Position numbers and translations under genes: made by a program
Notes under the pieces: generated by a model
The model's database searches: none
What the model was told of the DNA's origin: nothing
The model's input: the letters and a program-made list of their open reading frames with translations, nothing else
Assembly: GCA_017435645.1 (NCBI GenBank)
Contig: JAFSER010000040.1
Coordinates: forward strand, 1 to 50,485
Length of the DNA: 50,485 bases
Direction: 5' to 3'
Source: Clostridium sp.
Lineage (GTDB): Bacteria; Bacillota; Clostridia; Clostridiales; Clostridiaceae
Shown: piece by piece, positions 13,758-24,936 of the stretch
Layout of the letters: every line of letters starts with the position of its first letter
Numbering within the stretch: position 1 is the first letter of the stretch

Positions 13758-14119
13758 ATTATATTGAAATAGTTAATTTTTATAAATAACATAAATAAGA
13801 AAAGATGCTAGTATTTATTTTTTTATTTGGAGCTCTATCTATAATTTTTGTAAGTTATAGGTTTAAGATAAATCTTTTTATTTTTAAATTTAACAGCATA
13901 AAAAAAATATATAGGATAAATGTAAGTTGTTTACAAATTATAAAGGGTAATATTTTAGTAGTTATTTAGTTAGAATTAAATAAAAACTATAAAAAACGAG
14001 AATTTTTATAAAATTGAAAAGTATTTAGTACCAATCTTGCAAAAAGTGTGTTATAATATATAAAAAAATAGGGTAAATGAAATTTGGCGAAAAATACATT
14101 TCAAAAGAGGGGGAAGATT
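13758..14119 (+). promoter_or_regulatory. Gene-free 360 bases with an extended -10 promoter
   Basis: No ORF of note. Near the right end TG-T-TATAAT (14049-14057) is an extended -10 element about 65 bases before the next start, with a poor -35 region. The rest is AT-rich without obvious hairpins. Confidence 0.5.
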
Positions 14120-15868
14120 ATGCGTAAGGAATTTGCAATAAGCAATGATAAAGTATTAATTAATTTTACTGCTAAGTATTGTAGTACATTTGAAGCATTA
14201 GTAGAAAGTCAAGGTTTCACTAGGGTAATAGAAGATTACTTATTAAAATCAAAAAGAAAATTAACATTAAGTTGGAGATTTTTATCAGATAATTTAAAAA
14301 CAGATGATGTTAATGAAATAGCTTCAGATTTGATAAAAGTATTTAAATATTTTACTGTATTAAATGTTGAGGAGATTGTCAAGAATAATCCTAAGTATAC
14401 TGATTTATTTGAAGATAAGGACAAGTTTATAGCATTAATTGAAGACTTATATTTATTTTGGAGAAGATTAGAAAGATATACAATAATCCATAGCAATAAG
14501 CTACAAGATGGATTATCGGCAGTAAGTTTCACTCAAGCTAATTCAGCATTATCTACTCTAATTTTAAAATTATATAGAAAAATTGAAAAAAATGTATTAG
14601 GATATATACCTAAAGTGTTTAGGCAAATTCCAGTTGGGGGAAATGCTTCTATTGTAGTAAATAAGGTTTTATGGCCATTACCAAATGGATATGAAGTGTT
14701 AGAGGATGTTGAGTTTATAGACAATATATTATTAGAAACACCTTTTATAACATATCCTAAGAAAAATACAAGAAGTGGAATGTTTACTGAAGTATATACT
14801 AACCCATTAGAGGAAGCATATTTAAATAAAGATCACTGGTTCTGTTATCCTGCTAAGGTAGGAGAATTACTTGCTTTTATATATTTTCATAGAGATTACA
14901 TGCAACATGGAATAACTTTATGTAATTTATTTGAAATGGCTAGAGTTGAAGAATATAGGGGTAAAAAACCAGATTTAGTTTATGTATTTGGAGTGAATGA
15001 TCATAATGATAAAAAGACTACAGTCTTCTATGATGATAAAGAAAATGACATTATGGTTGGATATATAAATCATTCTGAAGAAATAGATTATTTTGGATAT
15101 ATTAAAAAAATGACATTAACGCTTCATAATTTAGTAATGATAAAAAGAGGATATTTACCAATTCATGGAGCAATGGTTAATATAGAATTAAAAGATGGAA
15201 AAACTGCTAATGTAGTAATTATGGGAGATAGCGGTGCAGGAAAATCAGAAAGCCTAGAAGCATTTAGAACTTTAAGTGAAGAATATATTAGTAATATGAC
15301 TGTTATATTTGATGATATGGGAACTTTTAAAGAAATAGATGGAAAGATAATTGGATATGGAACAGAAATTGGAGCTTTTATAAGGTTAGATGATTTGGAC
15401 CAAGGATATGCCTTTAAAGAAATAGATAGAAGTATATTTATGAATCCAGATAAAATTAATGCGAGATTAGTAATGCCAGTTTCACCATATAATGAAATTG
15501 TTAAAGGATATGAAGTAGATTTATTCCTTTATGCAAATAATTATACTGAAGTTAAAGAAGGAGAAAAATCTATAGAATATTTTGCAACTCCTGAAGATGC
15601 AATTAAAGTATTTAAAGCTGGAGCGAGAATGGCAAAGGGAACTACATCAGAAAAAGGTTTAGTTGAAAGTTATTTTGCAAATCCATTTGGACCAGCTCAA
15701 AAGCAAGAGGAAACAAATGTTTTAATAGAAAAATATTTTAATGATATGTTTAATGGAACTGTAAAAGTTGGACAAATTAAAACTTGTTTAGGATTAGATG
15801 GAAAAGAAAAAATAGGGCCTAAGAATGCTGCTATAGAATTATTTGAAATTATTAGAGGACTTAATTAG
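14120..15868 (+). CDS. PEP carboxykinase-like / HPr-kinase-type P-loop protein
   Basis: 582 aa. The C-terminal third has the nucleotide-binding signature of PEP carboxykinase (ATP) and HPr kinase folds: PIHGAMVNI, the P-loop GDSGAGKSES, and FDDMGTF as a possible metal-binding acidic motif. The N-terminal 250 residues are helical and unlike classical PckA. Clostridial proteins of this length are commonly labelled PEP carboxykinase-like, but the oxaloacetate/PEP substrate residues are not recognisable to me, so a kinase-type role is equally possible. ATG 14120 is chosen for its GAGGGGGAA site. An in-frame upstream start at 14084 has none. The gene ends at the left edge of the acquired island. 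Confidence 0.7.
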   Translation: MRKEFAISNDKVLINFTAKYCSTFEALVESQGFTRVIEDYLLKSKRKLTLSWRFLSDNLKTDDVNEIASDLIKVFKYFTVLNVEEIVKNNPKYTDLFEDKDKFIALIEDLYLFWRRLERYTIIHSNKLQDGLSAVSFTQANSALSTLILKLYRKIEKNVLGYIPKVFRQIPVGGNASIVVNKVLWPLPNGYEVLEDVEFIDNILLETPFITYPKKNTRSGMFTEVYTNPLEEAYLNKDHWFCYPAKVGELLAFIYFHRDYMQHGITLCNLFEMARVEEYRGKKPDLVYVFGVNDHNDKKTTVFYDDKENDIMVGYINHSEEIDYFGYIKKMTLTLHNLVMIKRGYLPIHGAMVNIELKDGKTANVVIMGDSGAGKSESLEAFRTLSEEYISNMTVIFDDMGTFKEIDGKIIGYGTEIGAFIRLDDLDQGYAFKEIDRSIFMNPDKINARLVMPVSPYNEIVKGYEVDLFLYANNYTEVKEGEKSIEYFATPEDAIKVFKAGARMAKGTTSEKGLVESYFANPFGPAQKQEETNVLIEKYFNDMFNGTVKVGQIKTCLGLDGKEKIGPKNAAIELFEIIRGLN

Positions 15869-15870
15869 AT

Positions 15871-15917
15871 AAAAAAAGAGATTGTTTTTTTGGGGGATAG
15901 CCCAATAAGGAAGTAAT
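15871..15917 (+). repeat. Left inverted-repeat block at the island edge
   Basis: AAAAAAAGAGATTGTT (15871-15886) is complementary to 23589-23604 (15 pairs plus one wobble). ATAAGGAAGTAAT (15905-15917) is the exact reverse complement of 23561-23573. The outer block looks like one arm of a terminator for the gene ending at 15868. A local alternative stem (AGAGATT with AATCTCT, enclosing GGG and CCC) also exists here. Confidence 0.65.
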
Positions 15918-15930
15918 CTCTATGTAGGTG

Positions 15931-15958
15931 CGGTGTAACCCGGTAAGGGGTTGCACCG
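15931..15958 (+). terminator. GC-rich hairpin at the left end of the island
   Basis: CGGTGTAACCC (15931-15941) pairs with GGGTTGCACCG (15948-15958) with one wobble, followed by TTTCCTCGTTTTT. Its base composition is foreign to the local chromosome and it probably came with the island. Confidence 0.55.
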
Positions 15959-15969
15959 TTTCCTCGTTT

Positions 15970-16360
15970 TTACAACACATAGCGGAATTGTTGGTGATTT
16001 TTCTTAATTTCATCTATCACAGCAGGGATTTCTTCTTCGATAAGAATACAAATTATTTCTAGTTCTGAGAAGTAAATATCAACTTTCACATAACAATGAA
16101 AACTTGATTTATCGTTGTTGTGAATTTCAATGATATCAATTAGAGAATTAATGATTGTAGGGGTAAGCTCATTTATATTGCTAATCTCTCGTAAGGTGCG
16201 AAGTAAAAAAGGTAAATCATAACCGTTTAGTCGGTGCTTTCTAAGGTTTATTTTATCTCCGCAATGGAAGTGATAAGTTCTCTTGCTCTTTTGTATAACC
16301 TACAATTATAGCAATATAGTGTTCTTCTTCCGTACCACTGATAACTGATCTTATGTCAAT
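15970..16360 (-). pseudogene. C-terminal remnant of a mobile-element gene, possibly a large serine recombinase
   Basis: From a stop at 15970 the leftward frame is open to a stop at 16300 (110 codons). It includes INELTPTIINSLIDIIEIHN and YVKVDIYFSELEI. A run of the form xxLTPxIIxxLIDxIEIH...VDIYF resembles the C-terminal DUF4368 region of large serine recombinases. Upstream, another frame continues (GTEEEHYIAIIVGYTKEQ), suggesting a frameshift, and no start or catalytic domain remains. The family call is from pattern memory and is tentative. That it is a truncated gene is much safer. Confidence 0.45.
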
Positions 16361-16379
16361 ATTTTGAAGACAAAATTTT

Positions 16380-17235
16380 TTACGTTATATTTCTAGCTAA
16401 TAATTCACATTGATTTGGAGTCATGTAATTAATAGAAGAATGTAGCTTTTTTCTGTTATAGCAATCTTCAATATATTTAAATATTGCTATATTAGTTTCT
16501 TACTTTTATCAGGGGAGTTACTATAATAGTCATTTTTTCTCGAAAACTTAGCAAATTATTTTCTTAGAATATAAGTCAAAAACTGAAAGTAAATAGTACT
16601 AATAATCTTTGATAGTATGAATATATGTAATATTTTTACCAATTTTTTATTAATAGAAGTAGTAGTAAAATCTATTTTTAAAGAATTCTTAAAGCCTTTT
16701 CTAGCAAGTATATAATGGCTCCTAGGGTCACTATATATACAATTATTAGCTTTATATATTCTTATAATAGCTGATTTTAAATCCTCATTTTCTATTTATC
16801 TTAAAGATTTGGCTATATCCAATGATTTGCAATATGTGCTTTGGCTATTTCTAGAATGATACACATAGTATTAATATCATGGTTAGTTTTATTTCTATAT
16901 ATAAACTCTATTACTTCATTTAATTTTTTTGTTGCAAATATGGATATATCTTTTTTTATATTTAATTTTCCTTTTTAATTCTTTATATTTCTTTTTTTAG
17001 TTATTTCACTTCCTTTAAAGTCATAACTTCATTTTCATCAACTTTCATTTCTTTTACATCTTTAATCCATCCCTTTATTGTTAATTTTACAATGACATAT
17101 TAGCTACTTAGCTCTACTAAGCTCATTCTTGACTTAAATAAGTCTACTATCATATTTTTATCTTCTACCTTTCCAATAATAGATACATTCTTTCTTAAGT
17201 AAATATTATTTTACTTAGTTCTATTTAATGTATCC
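16380..17235 (-). pseudogene. Decayed IS3-family insertion sequence (OrfA and OrfB remnants)
   Basis: Read leftward, the end of OrfB is clear: YIEDCYNRKKLHSSINYMTP just before the stop at 16380, the hallmark C-terminus of IS3/IS150-type transposases. Further upstream are YKANNCIYSDPRSHYILARK, matching the OrfB N-terminal region, and a DYYSNSPDKSK relic of the YDNAxxES motif. Around 17010-17130 an OrfA-like stretch (IKGWIKDVKEMKVDENEV, LKEVK) appears. Frameshifts, stops and deletions are frequent and most of the DDE core is missing, so it cannot make an active enzyme. I could not define its terminal inverted repeats. Confidence 0.8.
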
Positions 17236-17285
17236 ACTACTTTATACTAACACCAGGTTTCACTTTCAAATGTTCTGTCCGATAT

Positions 17286-17311
17286 TTGTGAGAACTTATT
17301 ACTTCTCACAA
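17286..17311. other. Perfect inverted repeat upstream of the ABC operon
   Basis: TTGTGAGAA (17286-17294) and TTCTCACAA (17303-17311) are perfect arms around an eight-base spacer. No T-run follows, so an operator is as likely as a terminator. It is about 175 bases before the substrate-binding gene. Confidence 0.5.
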
Positions 17312-17375
17312 AATAATATCCCCCTACCTAGCTTCTAGGCAAGTATCTGATTTAATAGAATATACAAGTAAAAAT

Positions 17376-17404
17376 GCCTCGGATAGCTGGCACCAAACCG
17401 AGGC
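17376..17404 (+). other. GC-rich hairpin in the leader of the ABC operon
   Basis: GCCTCGG (17376-17382) pairs perfectly with CCGAGGC (17398-17404) around a 15-base loop. It stands out in AT-rich surroundings and marks the point where island composition begins. No T-run follows. I could not match it to a known riboswitch. Confidence 0.5.
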
Positions 17405-17436
17405 TGACACGCCCAAAATCACAACAAAAACAGGCG

Positions 17437-17460
17437 AACATTTATATTATAGTAAATGTT
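17437..17460 (+). promoter_or_regulatory. Palindrome just before the ABC operon, possible operator
   Basis: AACATTTA (17437-17444) and TAAATGTT (17453-17460) are perfect arms around TATTATAG, which contains a -10-like TATTAT. If transcription starts near 17458, a repressor bound here would block it. The ribosome site begins 11 bases downstream. No good -35 was found. Confidence 0.45.
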
Positions 17461-17485
17461 GCCGGAAAATAGAAGGAGTATTACT

Positions 17486-19072
17486 ATGAGAATCACAAAA
17501 AAACTGATTGTACTGCTTTTGGCTTCGCTTATGTGCATGAGCCTTGTAGCCTGCGGAAAGAGATCCGCAGAAACTAAAGACAGCGTAGTTATCGCTATCG
17601 GATCTGAACCGGAAACCCTCGACCCGACTCAGGGATGGGGACACGGAAATGCACCTATAGTGCAGAGTACTCTTATCAGATATAATTCTGACTTGACTTT
17701 CGAGAACGATCTAGCAACTGGATATGAACTTTCATCCGATGGTCTGACTTGGACTTTTACCATTCGTGAGGATGTTAAGTTTACCGATGGCGAAAAGCTG
17801 ACCGCATCTGACGTTGCATTCACTCTGGAAACCGCAAAAGCCGCACAGGGTTCTGTTGACCTCACATATATGGAAAGTGCTGTGGCAAAAGATGATACTA
17901 CCGTTGTTATTACTCTGTCCAAGCCTACATCTATATTCCTTAACACCCTCGCTTCAGTTGGTATCGTTCCGAAGCATGCTTACAGCGATGATTACGGAAA
18001 GAATCCAATTGGCTCTGGGCCTTACAAGTTTGTTGAGTGGAAAGCACAGGAACAGATCATGTTTACAGCAAATGAAGATTATTATAACGGCGTTCCTGCT
18101 ATTAAAGATGTAACCGTAGTCTTTATGTCTGAGGACGCTGCTCTGGCTGCAGTACAGGCCGGTCAGGTAGATGTTGCATACTCTACCGCTAGCCTCGGCA
18201 CCACAGAAGTGGAAGGATATCATGTAGAAGCGATTACATCTGCAGATAACCGCGGTTTTACACTTCCTGTTCTGTCTGATGAGGGCAAGACTACGGAAAA
18301 TGGAGCTCCGATTGGCAACGATGTAACATGTAATATAGAGGTCCGTCAAGCCATTGCTTATGCTATTGACCGTCAGCAGGTTGCTGATGTTGTTCTGAAT
18401 GGTTTTGGCAGACCTGCTTATTCCGAAAATGACGGTATGCCTTGGAATAACCCCGAAGTTGTCATCAAAACCGATGTTGAATATGCCAAGAAACTGCTTG
18501 CTAATGCAGGGTGGAAGGACAGTGATGGTGACGGTATTATTGAAAAGGACGGCCTGAAAGCCGAGTTTGACTGTGTATATCCTTCCGGGGACTCTGTTCG
18601 TCAGGCGGTCGGCATGGCTGCTGCTGAACAGTTACTAGAGATTGGTATCAAAGTGAATATTACTGGTATGAGCTGGGATGAGATTATGAATGTTATGTTC
18701 TCTGAAGCTGTACTGATGGGATGGGGGTCAGCCATTCCGAATGAAACTTACTATCTGTATCGTTCCGAAGGAGCGCTGTTGGATGATTTCTATAATCCAG
18801 AAGGCTACATGAACGAAGTAACTGACGGTTATCTGAATGCAGCTATGGAAGCTCTGACTGTTGAAGAAGCAAATAAAAATTGGAAGAAAGCACAGTGGGA
18901 CGGCACTACCGGTACTGCTATGAAGGGAGAATGCCCTTGGGTATGGATCGTCAACCTCGATCACGTTACCTATGTTCGTAATGGTCTATCCATCGGTGAT
19001 CAGCCGATCCACGGCCATGGTCACGGTCTGCCTTTGATCCAGAATCTGCAGGATTGGGCTTGGGAAGAATAA
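17486..19072 (+). CDS. Family 5 substrate-binding lipoprotein of a nickel/peptide ABC importer
   Basis: 528 aa. A basic start and hydrophobic signal end in the lipobox SLVAC, so the mature protein is a lipid-anchored binding protein outside the membrane. The mature part has the SBP family 5 signatures: EPETLDPTQGW, LATGYELSSDGLTWTFTIREDVKFTDGEKLTASDV and PIGSGPYKFVEW. The C-terminal GDQPIHGHGHGLPL stretch is His-rich. The first gene of five in SBP-permease-permease-ATPase-ATPase order, it resembles NikABCDE and related metallophore or peptide importers. ATG 17486 is chosen because AGAAGGAG precedes it. Base composition and codon use are strikingly unlike the neighbouring clostridial genes, which indicates transfer. 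The ligand (nickel complex or peptide) is inferred. Confidence 0.88.
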   Translation: MRITKKLIVLLLASLMCMSLVACGKRSAETKDSVVIAIGSEPETLDPTQGWGHGNAPIVQSTLIRYNSDLTFENDLATGYELSSDGLTWTFTIREDVKFTDGEKLTASDVAFTLETAKAAQGSVDLTYMESAVAKDDTTVVITLSKPTSIFLNTLASVGIVPKHAYSDDYGKNPIGSGPYKFVEWKAQEQIMFTANEDYYNGVPAIKDVTVVFMSEDAALAAVQAGQVDVAYSTASLGTTEVEGYHVEAITSADNRGFTLPVLSDEGKTTENGAPIGNDVTCNIEVRQAIAYAIDRQQVADVVLNGFGRPAYSENDGMPWNNPEVVIKTDVEYAKKLLANAGWKDSDGDGIIEKDGLKAEFDCVYPSGDSVRQAVGMAAAEQLLEIGIKVNITGMSWDEIMNVMFSEAVLMGWGSAIPNETYYLYRSEGALLDDFYNPEGYMNEVTDGYLNAAMEALTVEEANKNWKKAQWDGTTGTAMKGECPWVWIVNLDHVTYVRNGLSIGDQPIHGHGHGLPLIQNLQDWAWEE

Positions 19073-19144
19073 TTTAATAAGTACATTAGACAGTATGCTG
19101 CATTTCAATCGGTGTGGCAGCTGCTCTAAATTGTTTATATAGGC

Positions 19145-19180
19145 TTTTACAAGGAAATAAAGTTTAATTTCCTTGTAAAA
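19145..19180 (+). other. Intercistronic hairpin after the binding-protein gene
   Basis: TTTTACAAGGAAAT (19145-19158) pairs perfectly with ATTTCCTTGTAAAA (19167-19180), loop of eight. It sits between binding-protein and permease genes without a T-run. Such hairpins often protect the upstream message so that more binding protein than permease is made. Confidence 0.65.
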
Positions 19181-19204
19181 ATCAATAGAGAGTGAGGTGT
19201 TTTT

Positions 19205-20200
19205 ATGAAAGTAAGTTTGAAGCAGATCATCCATATTTTCTTTACATATAGCATTAAGATAATAACGCTATTGTTAGCTGTCACTACAATTTCCTTTACA
19301 CTGGTCAGTACTTCGCCGATAGATCCGGTTCAACAGTATATTATTGGATTGGGAACAGCGGTCTCTCCAGAGCAAAGGGAAGAAATTGAAGATTATTGGG
19401 GCGTGAATGAGACACCGGCAGAACGATATTTCAGTTGGCTTTCTGAATTACTGCAGGGGAATCTTGGAGAGTCGGCAATCTACCGTAGACCTGTTGCTGA
19501 TATTATTGGGGAACGATTTATTAATTCTCTTGCGTTGATGCTGTGCTCCTGGGTTTTATCTGCGGTTATAGGATTCGGAGTTGCCTGTATCATGGGAGTG
19601 TACAAGGATAAATTACCCGACCGCATCTTGAAAAAGATATGTTATACTCTTAGTTCCGTTCCGACATTTTGGCTGGGACTTATATTTCTATTGATTTTTG
19701 CTATGGGGCTAAAATGGTTTCCCATTGGTTTCTCAAGTCCTATTGGTGTACTAAGTGAAGATGTTACCATTTGGCAGAAGCTGTATCATCTGATTTTGCC
19801 AGCGTTTACATTAAGCCTGATGTCCTTTTCCAACATAGCACTGCACACATATCAAAAACTGCTAGATGTACTGAATAGTGAGTATGTGCTGTTTGCAAAA
19901 GCACGAGGTGAAAGCAAATGGACGATACTGCGACGTCACGGTTTACGGAATATCCTGATTCCTGCACTGACCTTACAGTTCGCCTCTTTTGCAGAGTTAT
20001 TCGGTGGCTCGGTTATGGCAGAAAATGTATTCAGTTATCCGGGGCTTGGAAGTGCGCTTTCAGTGGCCGGACTTAGTTTGGATGTACCATTGCTTTTGGG
20101 TATTACTTTATTTTCTGCATTGTTTGTTTGTGTTGGCAATATGATTGCAAACCTACTTTATAGTGTTATAGATCCGCAGATTAGGGAGGTGGGCGAATGA
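19205..20200 (+). CDS. ABC importer permease, NikB/OppB/DppB type
   Basis: 331 aa and about six membrane segments. The N-terminal part (TISFTLVSTSPIDPVQQY, then WGVNETPAERYFSWLSELLQGNLG) is typical of the NikB/DppB subunit. The EAA-type coupling loop is KARGESKWTILRRHGLRNILIPALT. It forms the translocation pore with the next protein. GTGAGGTG precedes the ATG. Its stop overlaps the next start by four bases (ATGA), so the two are translationally coupled. GC content is raised, as in the rest of the operon. Confidence 0.9.
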   Translation: MKVSLKQIIHIFFTYSIKIITLLLAVTTISFTLVSTSPIDPVQQYIIGLGTAVSPEQREEIEDYWGVNETPAERYFSWLSELLQGNLGESAIYRRPVADIIGERFINSLALMLCSWVLSAVIGFGVACIMGVYKDKLPDRILKKICYTLSSVPTFWLGLIFLLIFAMGLKWFPIGFSSPIGVLSEDVTIWQKLYHLILPAFTLSLMSFSNIALHTYQKLLDVLNSEYVLFAKARGESKWTILRRHGLRNILIPALTLQFASFAELFGGSVMAENVFSYPGLGSALSVAGLSLDVPLLLGITLFSALFVCVGNMIANLLYSVIDPQIREVGE

Positions 20201-21021
20201 GAAAAATGAATCGGCGAACTAAGCTTTTGATTTTGACTATCATCATAGCTGTTGCTTTGGTGGCTATCTATCTTCTTGGAATTTTTATTCCCGATGAAGC
20301 AGTAGCAGGAAGCTTTTTGAATGCGAAGAAATCACCTTCATTGAAGCATCCTTTTGGTACAGATGCTTTTGGGCGTAATCTGCTGATGAGGACACTGAAA
20401 GGACTGTCTGTCAGTATGACAGTAGGGATTTCTACCTCCGTTATCAGTGCCGTAATTGCTGTTTTTGTTGGTATTGCAGCTGCTACAGGCTCAAAGCGGT
20501 TCGATGCCTTTATTAATTGGTGTATTGATATTGTTATGAGTGTTCCGCACACTATTTTGGTTATCCTCATCTCTTTTTCCATGGGTAGAGGATTAAAAGG
20601 TCTTCTCATTGGAATTGCTGCTACTCATTGGTGCAGCCTTGCAAGGCTGATTCGTGGAGAAGTTCTGCAGTTACGGTCTCAACAGTATGTTTCTGTGTCC
20701 CGTCAATTGGGAAAATCTAGTAGTTGGATTTTGATACATCACTTGCTGCCGCACCTTGTACCGCAATTCTTCGTTGGTTTAGTTTTGTTATTCCCTCATG
20801 CCATTCTTCACGAGGCATCAGTATCATTTCTCGGATTTGGTTTGCCTCCGGAGCAACCGGCCATCGGAATTATTTTATCCGAGAGTATTCGTTATATCTC
20901 CACAGGAATGTGGTGGCAGGCTGTATTGCCGGGACTGACATTGGTGCTGATCGTTCTGTTAGTTGATAAACTAGGGAACAATTTGCGTATGATTTTAGAC
21001 CCTTATAGTGCGCAGGAATAG
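20197..21021 (+). CDS. ABC importer permease, NikC/OppC/DppC type
   Basis: 274 aa and about six membrane segments. KHPFGTDAFGRNLLMRTLKG is the usual NikC/DppC entry sequence, and the coupling loop is VSRQLGKSSSWILIHHLLPHLVPQ. FLGFGLPPEQPAIGIILSES near the C-terminus is also family-typical. It partners the upstream permease. Start and upstream stop overlap. The following ATPase start lies ten bases past its stop. Confidence 0.9.
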   Translation: MRKMNRRTKLLILTIIIAVALVAIYLLGIFIPDEAVAGSFLNAKKSPSLKHPFGTDAFGRNLLMRTLKGLSVSMTVGISTSVISAVIAVFVGIAAATGSKRFDAFINWCIDIVMSVPHTILVILISFSMGRGLKGLLIGIAATHWCSLARLIRGEVLQLRSQQYVSVSRQLGKSSSWILIHHLLPHLVPQFFVGLVLLFPHAILHEASVSFLGFGLPPEQPAIGIILSESIRYISTGMWWQAVLPGLTLVLIVLLVDKLGNNLRMILDPYSAQE

Positions 21022-21031
21022 GAGGTGGCGT

Positions 21032-21967
21032 ATGATTCAGAAAAAAGAAACTTTACTTGAAATACATGATCTGTCTGTATCCTTCCTTATGTACGATCAC
21101 GGTCTTGAGCAAACAGACTTAAAAGTTATTTCTGATTTGCACCTGACTGTTTATCCAGGTGAGATTGTGGCTATCGCAGGTTCTTCTGGTTCCGGTAAAA
21201 GCTTGCTTGCATCAGCAATTCTAGGAATACTTCCGGGCAACGCAACAGTACGTGGTCACATCAATTATAAAGGTAAGGAACTGTCCGTCCAGCGGCAGAA
21301 GCAGCTTCGTGGAACTGAAATAGCACTGGTGCCCCAATCGGTTTCTTATCTTGATCCGCTAATGAAGGTGGGATCACAAGTAGATGGACATAAAAAACCA
21401 TATACAAGAGAAAAAAGACGAAGCCTGTTTAAGCGTCTTGGATTGCCGGATAAGACAGAGCAGCTTTATCCATTCCAACTGTCAGGTGGTATGGCAAGGC
21501 GTGTATTGGTATCTACAGCATTGATTACGGATGCTGAACTGATAATTGCAGATGAGCCGACACCGGGTATGAGCTTAGATCAGGCTATGGAGGCACTTAA
21601 AATGTTTCGTGAAATGGCAAATGAAGACAAAGCTGTTATTCTGATTACCCACGATATCGACCTAGCCTTTGAGTTTGCTGATCGAGTTGCTGTCTTTTAT
21701 GCCGGTACTACTGTGGAAATAGCACCTGCTAATGATTTCAAACAGGGATCTGATGCGCTGCGTCATCCGTATTCCAAGGCGCTATGGAGAGCGCTTCCTC
21801 AGAATGGATTTCAGCCAATCAAAGGCTTCCAACCTTATGCCGGTAATTTACCAAGTGGATGTTTGTTTGCGCCACGATGTCCCTATAAGACAGAAGAATG
21901 TGAAAAAAGCATACCATCGGTGACGGAAGTGCGTGGTGGAGAAGTGAGGTGTCATCATGTCACTTGA
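21032..21967 (+). CDS. ABC importer ATPase, NikD/OppD type
   Basis: 311 aa. Walker A is GSSGSGKS, the signature is LSGGMARR and Walker B is LIIADEP, followed by the H-loop ITHD. The signature has Met where most have Q (LSGGMxQR). Its C-terminal oligopeptide-transporter extension carries GCLFAPRCPYKTEECEK plus a later cysteine, the Cys cluster common in OppD/DppD. ATG 21032 is preceded by AGGAGGTGG, better placed than an upstream GTG-type start at 21008. The gene overlaps the next by 11 bases. Confidence 0.9.
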   Translation: MIQKKETLLEIHDLSVSFLMYDHGLEQTDLKVISDLHLTVYPGEIVAIAGSSGSGKSLLASAILGILPGNATVRGHINYKGKELSVQRQKQLRGTEIALVPQSVSYLDPLMKVGSQVDGHKKPYTREKRRSLFKRLGLPDKTEQLYPFQLSGGMARRVLVSTALITDAELIIADEPTPGMSLDQAMEALKMFREMANEDKAVILITHDIDLAFEFADRVAVFYAGTTVEIAPANDFKQGSDALRHPYSKALWRALPQNGFQPIKGFQPYAGNLPSGCLFAPRCPYKTEECEKSIPSVTEVRGGEVRCHHVT

Positions 21968-22568
21968 AGCAAGAAACATTTATTTTCGCTATGATAAAAA
22001 ATTACCGTGGGTTTTTGAAAACAGAAGTCTTACTATTAACAAAGGAGAGCGCCTTGCACTGTTCGCTCCAAGTGGTTACGGAAAAACTACCCTTGCCATG
22101 CTTCTGGCAGGCTATTTACAGCCAACCAAGGGACAGATATTGCTGGACGGCAAAAGGCTTCCGTCAAAAGGTGTCTGTCCTGTACAGTTGATTTATCAAC
22201 ACCCGGAAAAGGCAATTAATCCTCGCTGGCATCTACGGAAAGTTTTAGAAGAGAGCGGAAAACTGCAGGAAGATATGCTGGATGCTTTCGGTATTGAAAA
22301 TGCTTGGCTTGATCGTTTTCCAAAAGAACTTTCTGGAGGAGAGCTTCAAAGGTTTTGTGTGGCAAGAGCACTTCTCAGCGGAGCAGATTATTTGATCTGT
22401 GATGAGATTAGCACAATGCTTGATGTCATCACACAGGCTCAAATCTGGAATATCGTTCTAGAGGAAGCTGAAAAGCAAAATATGGGTATCATAACCGTTA
22501 CCCATAACCGACATTTGGCTCAGAGAATCGCTACAAGAATTATAGACCTGTCCGATGGCCTGTACTGA
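21957..22568 (+). CDS. ABC importer ATPase, NikE/OppF type, short form
   Basis: 203 aa. Walker A reads APSGYGKTT, the signature LSGGELQRF, and the Walker B region LICDEIS, with ITVTHN as the H-loop. It lacks the C-terminal Opp extension found in its partner, as in short NikE-like subunits. It should pair with the 311-aa ATPase as a heterodimer. It is the last gene of the operon; degraded DNA follows at once. ATG 21957 overlaps the previous gene in another frame. Confidence 0.88.
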   Translation: MSLEARNIYFRYDKKLPWVFENRSLTINKGERLALFAPSGYGKTTLAMLLAGYLQPTKGQILLDGKRLPSKGVCPVQLIYQHPEKAINPRWHLRKVLEESGKLQEDMLDAFGIENAWLDRFPKELSGGELQRFCVARALLSGADYLICDEISTMLDVITQAQIWNIVLEEAEKQNMGIITVTHNRHLAQRIATRIIDLSDGLY

Positions 22569-22574
22569 TATGGG

Positions 22575-22672
22575 GTTAAAATTCTATTTGAGTATCTTTC
22601 TACTATTGGATTAAATACTTTAAGGGATAAGAAAGTAAGGTTGAAATTCTATTTAAGTAGCTTTTTGCTATT
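22575..22672 (+). repeat. Two 33-bp imperfect direct repeats, 65-bp period
   Basis: The copies at 22575-22607 and 22640-22672 (GTTxAAATTCTATTTxAGTA...) agree at 28 of 33 positions. Spacing gives a 32-base interval. There is no third copy 65 bases on either side. Confidence 0.6.
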
Positions 22673-22714
22673 TAGAAAAAGCTCATTATAAAATGCTATC
22701 TTCTCAGCAAAAGG

Positions 22715-22933
22715 GTAATAATCGCAACTAGAAATACTTGAATCTATAATTACAATCCAAGGCCAGCAAGAGCAGGAATTTCAGATATACTTAATGATGT
22801 TTAGGATGGTACAAGTGACATAATTCTATCTGGAGAAATAACGGCGGGTAAATATCACGTCAGAGCCGTTGAAACAATAGCTAAAATTTTAGAAACCACC
22901 GAAAGTAATATTCATTATAAAAAAATTTTATAA
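22715..22933 (+). pseudogene. Pyruvate kinase gene fragment
   Basis: VIIATR then, after a small frameshift, LESIITNPRPARAGISDILNDV, an in-frame TAG, and DGTSDIILSGEITAGKYHVRAVETIAKILE. This matches the pyruvate kinase core (IIATQMLESM, NPRPTRAEVSD, DGTDAxMLSGETAxGKYPxEAVxxM). Only about 70 residues of some 470 remain, with a stop and at least two frameshifts, so it is non-functional. It is an odd passenger between the ABC operon and a transposase wreck. Confidence 0.85.
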
Positions 22934-23024
22934 TGCCGAATTCAAGATAAAAAACTCAGTGGATCTAACTTACGGACAGTTAATAACCATATAATTGGTA
23001 ATATAAAATTTATTTTGAAAATAT

Positions 23025-23092
23025 AAAAAACCACCTTTTTCTAGTCTAAAATTAGTTTGCATACAAAATTCACAAAAGAAAGGTGGTTTTTA
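23025..23092 (+). promoter_or_regulatory. Hairpin covering the ribosome site of a decayed transposase gene
   Basis: TAAAAAACCACCTTT (23024-23038) can pair with AAAGGTGGTTTTTA (23079-23092), which includes the ribosome site AAAGGTGG and ends at the ATG (23092). The arrangement is the same in principle as the one at 34-100. Confidence 0.6.
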
Positions 23093-23420
23093 TGATTAAC
23101 TATTAAGAATATATTAATACAGAATTGAAAAAACACTGGAAAAATGATATTTTATCGTCTCCTTGCTTAAATAATTTAATAGCAATGATTATTGGAATAA
23201 TATCTTCACAATCCGTCATCTTATCTAAAATATCTCAAGAGTTAAAAGAGTGTTCTTATTTTTTTAGGAACTGAAGAAAGTAAAATAAAGAGGTTATAAA
23301 GATTTTTAAGTAATAAAACTATTAATCCTGAAAAACTTTATGAGTTTTTCAGGATTAATTTTTACAGAAATACAAATTTACATCAAAATAAATTTATATA
23401 ATATTTGATAATACAACAAT
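23092..23420 (+). pseudogene. N-terminal remnant of a DDE transposase (IS4-type)
   Basis: Starts MINY-stop, then EYINTELKKHWKNDILSSPC, LNNLIAMIIGIISSQSVILS and KISQELKEC. After a frameshift come GTEESKIKRL and LSNKTINPEKLYEFF. Such an N-terminus (defence of a helix bundle followed by RFLSNxxINPEKLYxF) is that of IS4-type DDE transposases in clostridia. Stops at codon 5 and later plus frameshifts kill it. The DDE catalytic domain is absent. Confidence 0.7.
23321..23364 (+). terminator. Strong hairpin within the transposase remnant
   Basis: ATTAATCCTGAAAAACT (23321-23337) and AGTTTTTCAGGATTAAT (23343-23359) are perfect 17-base arms with a five-base loop, followed by TTTT. It may terminate rightward transcription from the remnant. 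Confidence 0.6.
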
Positions 23421-23464
23421 AAAGGAAGTCATATAGTCGAATGTACCGCTATAAAAACAGAAAA

Positions 23465-23500
23465 ATACCGGGAAAAACTTTTTATAGTTCTTCTCGGTAT
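23465..23500 (-). terminator. Hairpin near the right end of the island
   Basis: ATACCGGGAAAAAC (23465-23478) pairs with GTTCTTCTCGGTAT (23487-23500) with one wobble and one mismatch. Read leftward it is followed by TTTTTCTGTTTTT, so it would stop leftward transcription. Confidence 0.6.
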
Positions 23501-23560
23501 TCATCTTTTGGTTGCCTTTGTCAATACCGGATAATTCAGCACATTAGATATAGTTTCTAA

Positions 23561-23604
23561 ATTACTTCCTTATCAGGTGTTGATATTTAACAGTCTCTTT
23601 TTTT
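23561..23604 (-). repeat. Right inverted-repeat block at the island edge
   Basis: AACAGTCTCTTTTTTT (23589-23604) is complementary to 15871-15886, and ATTACTTCCTTAT (23561-23573) to 15905-15917. The outer block has no local partner to complete a stem, although it sits where the terminator of the DUF378 gene should be. Confidence 0.65.
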
Positions 23605-23611
23605 GAACATA

Positions 23612-23821
23612 TTATTCATTTGAATTTGAATATTGGCTTTTTCCAAAGAAAGAAAGTGAGTATAAACCTGCAATACCAACTAAGGCATATATTACTCTTT
23701 CTAAAGCGGGCATAAAGCCAAACAAACTATTTACTAGATTATATTGGAAGAATCCTATTAATCCCCAATTAACAGCTCCTATAATAACTAAAATAAGAAC
23801 TATTGAATCCAATATTTTCAT
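23612..23821 (-). CDS. DUF378 family small membrane protein (YuzA-like)
   Basis: 69 aa, two membrane segments. KILDSIVLILVIIGAVNWGLIGFF and VERVIYALVGIAGLY-type sequence are the DUF378 signatures. Function is unknown in the family. ATG 23821 has AAAGGG nine bases upstream. In-frame starts at 23830 and 23839 overlap or precede the ribosome site. It lies directly outside the acquired island and is convergent with the gene ending at 15868 if the island is removed. Confidence 0.85.
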   Translation of the reverse strand: MKILDSIVLILVIIGAVNWGLIGFFQYNLVNSLFGFMPALERVIYALVGIAGLYSLSFFGKSQYSNSNE

Positions 23822-23881
23822 AACAATCATCCCTTTCATTGATTATACAAATAGTTTAACCAAGAAAAAAGGATTTATTCT

Positions 23882-24349
23882 TTAAAGAGTTATATTTCTA
23901 TCTATAGGTTGATTTAATGAAATTATAGTATCAGTTCTTTGAATACCATTTATAGGATTAATTTTATTAAGCAATATATTTTGAAGATCTGATATATTTT
24001 TACATATTACTTTAGCAAAAACACTGTATGTACCAGTAGTAAGATGTAATTCTACAACTTCATTTATCTTTGATAATTCATTAAATACTGAATCATAAGA
24101 TGATGTTTTATCTATATATATACCAACAAAACAGCAGACATCATAACCAAGTTTAGGTAAATCTAATAAAATTCTTGTACCTTTTATTATTCCAAGCTCC
24201 TCCATTTTTTTCATTCTAACATGTATAGTTCCACCACTAACATGACAGATTCTAGCTATTTCTAAATAAGGAGTTCTACAATCTTTTATCAATAAATCTA
24301 ATATTTGCAAATCCAATTCATCTAGTTGGTTAGTTAAATTAAAACTCAC
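23882..24349 (-). CDS. Lrp/AsnC family transcription regulator
   Basis: 155 aa. The N-terminal winged helix-turn-helix is LDELDLQILDLLIKDCRTPYLEIARICHVSGGTIHVRMKKMEELGII, and a RAM ligand-binding domain follows (VEL HLTTGTYSVFAKVICKN). Such proteins form dimers or octamers and respond to amino acids. The GTG at 24349 is chosen since AAGAGGTGG lies upstream. An ATG at 24370 would place that site within the gene. Targets are unknown. It is close to the DUF378 gene on the same strand. Confidence 0.88.
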   Translation of the reverse strand: MSFNLTNQLDELDLQILDLLIKDCRTPYLEIARICHVSGGTIHVRMKKMEELGIIKGTRILLDLPKLGYDVCCFVGIYIDKTSSYDSVFNELSKINEVVELHLTTGTYSVFAKVICKNISDLQNILLNKINPINGIQRTDTIISLNQPIDRNITL

Positions 24350-24597
24350 AAAACCACCTCTTTTTAACATTTTATAACTACTTAATATATTTTATCAAAT
24401 AATTTATTAAAATAGAAGGAAATTTTAATAAAATTAATAAAAAAAATAAATAAAATATATTATTTTGTTAAAAATTTACTAATAATAAAAAGTTATGAAA
24501 AAATTATTTTAATTTAAAATATAAATTCATATATCTTGAAAATATTAAAAGTTTCTTTTAATATAATATGTATAAGCTTATAAAGGAGGCATTATTT

Positions 24598-24936
24598 ATG
24601 GGTAGCATATTAATAATGATAGCTTATTTTGCAGTTCTAATTTTATTAACACTTTTATTATTTAATCTTGGGAAAAAATATGTTTTTTCAAAAGTAAAAA
24701 TAAATAAATGGATACCATTAGCTATAGCTGTAGTATTATTTTTATTACAAGTTTTTGTTAAATCAAGTAATATATTTGTTACTGCAGGATTTGTTTTATC
24801 AGTAGTTTGGTTCTTTATGTGGTTTATGGATATTCAAGTTTCTGGTGGTCCTAAGCAAAAGGAAAAGAAAATTGAAATTAGACCTAAAGCTAAACCAAAT
24901 AGAGCAAAACATATTCAAAAACAAAATAAAAAATAA
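24598..24936 (+). CDS. Small three-helix membrane protein, function unknown
   Basis: 112 aa. Three hydrophobic segments (about 4-22, 36-52, 58-78) precede a Lys/Gln-rich cytoplasmic tail. No family recognised. ATG 24598 has AAAGGAGG upstream, much better than an ATG at 24568. It appears to stand alone. Confidence 0.7.
   Translation: MGSILIMIAYFAVLILLTLLLFNLGKKYVFSKVKINKWIPLAIAVVLFLLQVFVKSSNIFVTAGFVLSVVWFFMWFMDIQVSGGPKQKEKKIEIRPKAKPNRAKHIQKQNKK

Follow-up and report, generated by a model that had tools for sequence, protein, structure and literature searches.

A stretch of 50,485 nucleotides (nt) from a Clostridium sp. genome (GenBank assembly GCA_017435645.1, contig JAFSER010000040.1; this whole stretch is hereafter referred to as the window) carries two convergent host genes, one resembling phosphoenolpyruvate carboxykinase (PEPCK-like) and one of the DUF378 type, which are separated by a 7.7-kb island containing a five-gene ABC transporter, stretches of decayed DNA and the C-terminal end of a large serine recombinase (LSR) (Table 1). 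The GC content is 24.8-25.6% in the flanks and 43.4% in 17456-22568. The initial annotation of the region, made from the sequence alone, had proposed that an acquired element split one bidirectional terminator, and the present analysis supports this proposal well, as the arrangement recurs with other stems in related elements and two uninterrupted hairpins were found in same-genus genomes. The island is interpreted here, with a probability of about 0.92, as a decayed and probably immobile element that a DUF4368-type LSR placed between the two convergent genes, in the loop of their shared bidirectional intrinsic terminator.

Organisation of the island ends

The outer block of the left end, AAAAAAAGAGATTGTT (15871-15886), is complementary to that of the right end, AACAGTCTCTTTTTTT (23589-23604), at 15 of 16 positions with one G-T pair at the remaining position, as the initial annotation had described. 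Of 2000 dinucleotide shuffles, 9 reached the score of the best local alignment between the end regions, which measure 160 and 180 nt, and the outer pair (I15) is one among 47 inverted pairs listed within 15600-24400. By itself the match beats chance only moderately and was therefore not accepted as proof of a split terminator. When the flanks of the window are joined, they fold as one hairpin (-17.9 kcal/mol) in which the A-run and the T-run are paired, in agreement with the earlier view that the two blocks form one shared terminator.

Next to the outer blocks, on the island side, is an inner inverted repeat formed by ATAAGGAAGTAAT (15905-15917) and ATTACTTCCTTAT (23561-23573); it was overlooked in the initial annotation and is the element's own pair of attP arms (P arms). 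A weight matrix derived from five other elements places the right end of the island at 23585 with a score of 30.6 bits, the next best hit on both strands of the whole window scoring 13.6 bits; the right TT core is 12 nt from the P arm. At the left end the spacer is 13 nt instead of 12, so that the left TT core, placed by hand, is certain only to about 1 nt.

For the left outer block there is also a partner nearby, AATCTCT (15915-15921), and the plus strand of 15860-15965 folds strongly (-43.3 kcal/mol, z = -6.45). A self-contained terminator at the left end, considered on account of this fold, was rejected because the inner arm is the element's own. In a related end (L051) the identical ATAAGGAAGTAATCTCT adjoins another host arm; the AATCTCT partner therefore belongs to the element and the local pairing looks coincidental. 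The left end region of the window is about 80% identical at the nucleotide level to those of the related loci L100 (320/399), L106 and L115, and a DNA search with this region in 68 genomes of the genus, the window's own included, returned besides itself only three short weak matches.

Recurrence of the ends in related loci

A protein search with the recombinase fragment in 391 genomes of the class gave matches in 48, the window's own counted. With a profile of the recombinase C-terminus, 133 relatives were recognised in a named genome collection and 80 loci were kept, labelled mostly as Clostridia (Lachnospiraceae, Oscillospiraceae and unclassified), many of them from animal gut; the taxonomy was checked for one. 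All four domains, Resolvase, Recombinase, zinc-ribbon and DUF4368, are present in the two intact relatives tested (L085, from the commensal Merdimmobilis hominis, and L153). An annotated recombinase of an Enterococcus faecalis plasmid (NZ_KY303941.1, 5248-6894) is 60% identical to that of L085.

The element anatomy observed in the window recurs in these relatives. The DNA 3' of the nearer recombinases carries an arm such as CTTCCTTAT and a spacer, often preceded by a hairpin and in most cases followed by a variable arm with a T-run after it; this layout is present in L036-L042 and in a variant form in L044, L046-L050, L054, L056, L060 and L062. Hairpins of the type GGTGCAACC...GGTTACACC stand directly 3' of the recombinase stop codon in many family members, L036-L042 included. 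The P arm was found no more than 260 nt after the recombinase match in 78 of the 80 loci (50 exact, 25 with one mismatch and three with two).

Host flanks were analysed for the 76 ends with at least 45 nt of flank. In 68 of the 76, a TTTT begins no more than 20 nt from the core, compared with 2362 of 15,200 control windows (15.5%) from the same host DNA; for a start at 6-14 nt from the core the figures are 59 of the 76 and 6.4% of the controls. The nearest host open frame on the recombinase side has its 3' end toward the site in 57 cases and its start beyond the site in 13; in the other six, one of its two ends is no more than 3 nt from the core. The host arms are variable across the 76 ends and across the 20 elements for which both flanks are available, which indicates many targets for the family as a whole.

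These comparisons bear on another explanation offered by the initial annotation, in which the outer blocks are the outer portion of terminal inverted repeats borne by the element; the element would then be a transposon with long terminal repeats, and no host terminator would have been split. The ends do carry the inner repeat at nearly equal spacing, and part of the inverted repeat accordingly belongs to the element. In the relatives, however, the inner arms are conserved and the outer blocks vary with the host site; L153-L157 share a common P arm and spacer and have five different outer arms. Moreover, the outer arms fit their own partners far better than other partners, and the outer blocks of one related element (in genome G466) occur joined, with no element between them, in genome G510 (both described below). 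The terminal-repeat explanation is contradicted by these observations and is considered extremely improbable.

Pairing of the host flanks

In five elements (G380, G096, G246, G250 and G466) the far end carries the matching 5' half of the hairpin. In the G380 element, for example, AAAACAGGACGAAGCG|TT and TT|TGCTTCGTCCTGTTTTTT mark the two ends, which are separated by 11.6 kb. No far end was found in the sixth element examined, G121. Counting a 12-nt spacer from CTTCCTTAT to the core yields the same dinucleotide at both ends in all five of these elements and in 19 of 20 overall, the exception being L125 (AA/AG).

A search for far ends by arm complementarity inside the 80 loci was noisy and was therefore replaced by a weight matrix blind to the arms, which covers only the element-internal far end (32 nt, no host bases) and was built from the five elements above. 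Of 81 element ends entered, 74 were scored; the P arm failed the stricter match in five (L103, L141, L142, L143 and L147) and the upstream DNA was too short in two (L087 and L151). Far ends were found for 20 elements at 22.6 bits or more, the next candidate scoring 16.3 bits. These 20 fall among the 25 ends with longer or sufficient DNA, the others being G121, L133, L129, L160 and L163, in which none was found. The other 56 ends gave no far end above 20 bits; in 55 of them the contig stops short of 10 kb upstream. A pattern search for far ends in 18 genomes had a hit rate close to that of the control in most of them.

The pairing of the flanks was examined in 21 flank pairs, namely the 20 elements and the window. 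Stem complementarity averages 12.2 in true pairs and 7.0 in mismatched ones; an untied first rank goes to the true partner in 14 of the 21 and a second rank in two, and none of 100,000 permutations came up to the observed total. When the five training elements are left out, the true partner ranks first in 10 of 16, again with none of 100,000 permutations reaching the observed total.

Empty sites in related genomes

Loci around the DUF378 gene were collected from 29 relatives, of which 19, belonging to the same genus, also carry the PEPCK-like gene. The initial annotation had looked to such relatives for an empty site with an intact short hairpin between the two genes. A single hairpin does lie there in seven of the 19, where the genes are convergent with 31-61 bp from stop to stop; an eighth (L022) has 126 bp with the main hairpin and a second AT-rich one. 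The terminators differ between species, the nearest in sequence being that of L025, AAAAAAGAGATTTGCT...AGCAAATCTCTTTTTTT. In the remaining 11 of the 19 (L006, L013, L015, L020 and others) the spacer measures 339-1182 bp, and this intergenic region thus changes often. An empty site for the window element itself is considered likely.

Uninterrupted hairpins were observed for two related elements in genomes of the same genus. The joined flanks of the G466 element match G510 over the whole hairpin and the right flank, with 76 of 76 bases identical in the aligned stretch; a longer match shows 89% identity over query positions 313-662, and the left flank beyond the A-run is not common to both. At this join the sequence neither gains nor loses a base, the common two-base core excepted. 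For the joined flanks of the G380 element, the match to G330 takes in the left flank as well as the hairpin (79% over 1-354), with the same stem and an altered loop; the right flank is not common to both. Comparable short hairpin matches were found elsewhere in G509, G510 and G551.

Genes were called to the left and to the right of 20 sites, among them that of the window; these neighbours are convergent in nine, both on the plus strand in six, both on the minus strand in five and divergent in none. The gene orientation around the sites agrees with terminators.

Proposed mechanism and target recognition

In the mechanism proposed here, attP would consist of two inverted arms, each CTTCCTTAT followed by 12 nt, around a 2-bp core, and attB would be the terminator itself, with an A-run, a stem arm, an AA/TT core, a stem arm and a T-run. 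The LSR would join attP to the terminator hairpin as attB, and the crossover would leave the A-run and the 5' stem arm at one end of the element and the 3' stem arm and the T-run at the other. The pre-insertion site of the window, in the space separating the PEPCK-like gene from the DUF378 gene, is predicted to contain a single TT core and to read A-run-GAGATTGTT-T-rich loop-AACAGTCTC-T-run. The recombinase itself would select such sites through the A/T tracts and probably through dyad symmetry, and terminators, being abundant, would thereby serve as insertion points that spare genes.

The information content of the host flanks peaks at the core and at about 13-19 nt from it, with T on one side and A on the other; it is milder at 8-12 nt and very low at stem positions 3-7. 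This profile, with nearly free stem positions, suits a narrower form of the interpretation, in which only the spacing of A-tract, AA or TT core and T-tract is read, intergenic sites with such spacing are often terminators, and insertions into genes are lost by selection. An A-rich/AA/T-rich motif given for the recombinase Cp36 in human cells by Durrant et al. 2022 (PMC10083194) points the same way. In the 657 kb of host DNA there are 246 sites with this spacing; 86 do not fall within an open frame of 100 codons. A matching stem is present in 29 of these 86 intergenic sites and in 13 of the 15 insertions meeting the spacing (p=0.0003), or in 9 of 11 insertions without the training set (p=0.003). 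This enrichment, obtained with small numbers and crude calling of open reading frames, favours the view that symmetry is read to some degree beyond the tracts. The narrower form, in which the tracts alone are read, is given about even odds.

A bolder proposal is that these are structure-guided integrases, whose attB is chosen as a dyad-symmetric hairpin between an A-tract and a T-tract, whatever the stem sequence, so that terminators are targeted as a class. This is put forward tentatively, the odds being somewhat against it. If true, structure guidance would give a large family of mobile elements in Clostridia a general way of inserting that spares genes, and the A-rich/AA/T-rich motif of multi-targeting LSRs would be accounted for.

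Points that weigh against the interpretation

Several observations count against the insertion of the island into one terminator. The window's exact uninterrupted terminator is in none of the 19 same-genus relatives, and in L006, the relative closest to the window by PEPCK identity (87%), the spacer is 339 bp long and contains two hairpins. The uninterrupted sites of G510 and G330 have only one of the two flanks in common with the respective element, and the left spacer of the window departs by one base from the 12-nt rule. Among the 21 loci of the more distant recombinases, eight (L053, L055, L057-L059, L061, L063 and L064) and probably L043 have no end of the described layout, and eight of the 76 ends are without a nearby TTTT. 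As to the pairing, five of the 21 pairs (L093, L107, L096, L164 and L162) have no good stem, and a complementarity of at least 9, reached by 16 of 21 true pairs, is also found in 77 of 420 mismatched pairs, an effect of the A- and T-runs, which are complementary in any combination. The five training pairs, L117, L130 and the window had been spotted, at least in part, by their arms beforehand, and the true partner ranks first in seven of the other 13. Finally, no activity can be claimed for the window recombinase, of which only a fragment is left.

The two hairpins of L006, the longer spacers in 11 of the 19 relatives and the moderate significance of the 16-nt match would suit a different history, in which two unrelated terminators, one for each gene, are alike by chance and the island arrived otherwise. 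Against this, the far end is the best matrix hit in the window by 17 bits, the right core sits where expected and the left one is off by no more than one base, and the adjoining bases are the predicted terminator halves. Such a chance resemblance is regarded as highly improbable.

Cargo and decay of the element

The coordinates of the features are given in Table 1.

Table 1. Features of the island and of its host flanks, in window coordinates
Feature	Position	Strand	Evidence
PEPCK-like host gene	14084..15868	+	Open reading frame; 3' end abuts the left terminator half
Left half of host terminator (attB left): A-run and 5' stem arm	15871..15889	+	Complementary to 23588-23604; joined fold
Likely 2-bp crossover core TT, left copy	15890..15891	.	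Spacing in relatives; placed by hand, uncertain by about 1 nt
attP half-site, recombinase end: CTTCCTTAT and spacer on the minus strand	15892..15917	-	P arm in relatives
Hairpin just 3' of the recombinase stop codon, GGTGCAACC...GGTTACACC type	15930..15959	-	Fold; relatives
LSR C-terminal fragment (DUF4368), without catalytic domain	15973..16299	-	PF14287, E=2.6e-12; 61% identity to L036
Decayed DNA with transposase-like scraps (by eye)	16300..17455	.	No open reading frame of 60 amino acids listed up to 17446; translations
Cargo: five-gene ABC transporter of nickel/oligopeptide type	17456..22568	+	Pfam, NCBIfam, GC content
Decayed DNA including a pyruvate kinase fragment	22569..23560	.	PF00224, E=1.3e-8
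attP half-site, far end: ATTACTTCCTTAT and 12-nt spacer CAGGTGTTGATA	23561..23585	+	Weight matrix, best in window by 17 bits
2-bp crossover core TT, right copy	23586..23587	.	12-nt spacing
Right half of host terminator (attB right): 3' stem arm and T-run	23588..23604	+	Complementarity, weight matrix, joined fold
DUF378-type host gene, convergent with the PEPCK-like gene	23612..23839	-	Open reading frame; DUF378 is the label of the initial annotation

The recombinase remnant of the window is an open frame of 109 codons that covers the C-terminus only; an intact recombinase is absent from the window copy, and the fragment has one match in the window's own genome (79% complete). Judging from this sequence, the window element is probably immobile, the catalytic part of its recombinase having been lost. 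Such losses recur in the family: of the 56 related loci that have 2 kb or more of upstream DNA, 17 (L088, L110, L132, L133, L134 and others) have a recombinase open frame of fewer than 500 codons; such loci may be non-autonomous carriers moved in trans, or remnants.

The nearest relative of the ABC transporter in the 391 genomes searched is that of G140 (79% identity), which apparently lies outside such an element, no pair of P arms being present within the 30 kb examined. The G140 transporter is located just downstream of genes that resemble, by eye, larE/larB/larC of the nickel-dependent lactate racemase.

Two transposase-like pieces from 16300..17455 gave no Pfam match. On the right, the decayed DNA holds the remnant of a pyruvate kinase gene at 22754-22930. 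It also holds two inverted repeats (23321-23359 and 23026-23091), one of 17 bp that is perfect and another of 20 nt that matches at 85%, which are perhaps the ends of small insertion sequences. The Pfam and NCBIfam hits among the window proteins and pieces tested are to the ABC transporter, the recombinase end and pyruvate kinase, the profiles searched including none for Tns proteins. Of the two host genes, the PEPCK-like one has a weak NCBIfam match to phosphoenolpyruvate carboxykinase (27 bits, cut-off 369); the DUF378-type one has none in NCBIfam, and a search of 59 genomes, counting the window's own, matched it in 52.

Comparison with known systems

The insertion of mobile elements at terminators has precedents outside the serine recombinases. 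Group IIC introns likewise insert at the intrinsic terminators of many genes, but do so by RNA-based retrohoming adjoining the hairpin; no group II intron RNA is present here, Rfam giving no match in 15000-24600 at the gathering threshold. Tn7 at attTn7 inserts in the glmS terminator and also spares genes, but by DDE transposition at a fixed site read by a protein and with target duplication, unlike the 2-bp core and the many sites of the elements described here. The present observations suggest that terminator insertion arose in serine recombinases too, besides Tn7 and the group IIC introns. Within the serine recombinases, TnpX of Tn4451 and TndX of Tn5397 are the recombinases of mobilizable and conjugative transposons. 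The catalytic domain of TnpX is the best match to the intact L085 recombinase among solved structures (2mhc_A, E=1.5e-30); the published targets of TnpX and TndX, however, are GA-core sites and are not known to be terminators.

Recurrence in many Clostridia suggests a simple landing rule for multi-targeting integrases, and the ends of such elements can be found as split terminators with the attP arms just inside. No statement of a terminator rule for natural targets was found in the literature searched (titles and abstracts, mainly open-licence). The main text of PMC10083194 contains none of 'terminator', 'hairpin' and 'palindrom', and 'terminator' and 'hairpin' are absent from the available part of a 2026 paper on multi-targeting (PMC13137831). 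The rule is likely to be new, which falls short of proof.

The closest resemblance is to the multi-targeting DUF4368 LSRs such as Cp36, Pc01 and Enc9. According to Durrant et al. 2022 (PMC10083194), 63% of the multi-targeting clade carry DUF4368, one example has a TT core and the sites are relaxed and AT-rich. The elements described here share with that clade the presence of DUF4368 in most members, a TT/AA core, many targets, and A-rich 5' and T-rich 3' flanks. They differ in that the sites are described as relaxed and AT-rich there and are mostly intrinsic terminators with paired stems here, the comparison with Cp36 being one of published descriptions. For a clade so far characterised as multi-targeting, relaxed and AT-rich, and already used in genome engineering, the split terminators of these elements offer a concrete and testable target rule.

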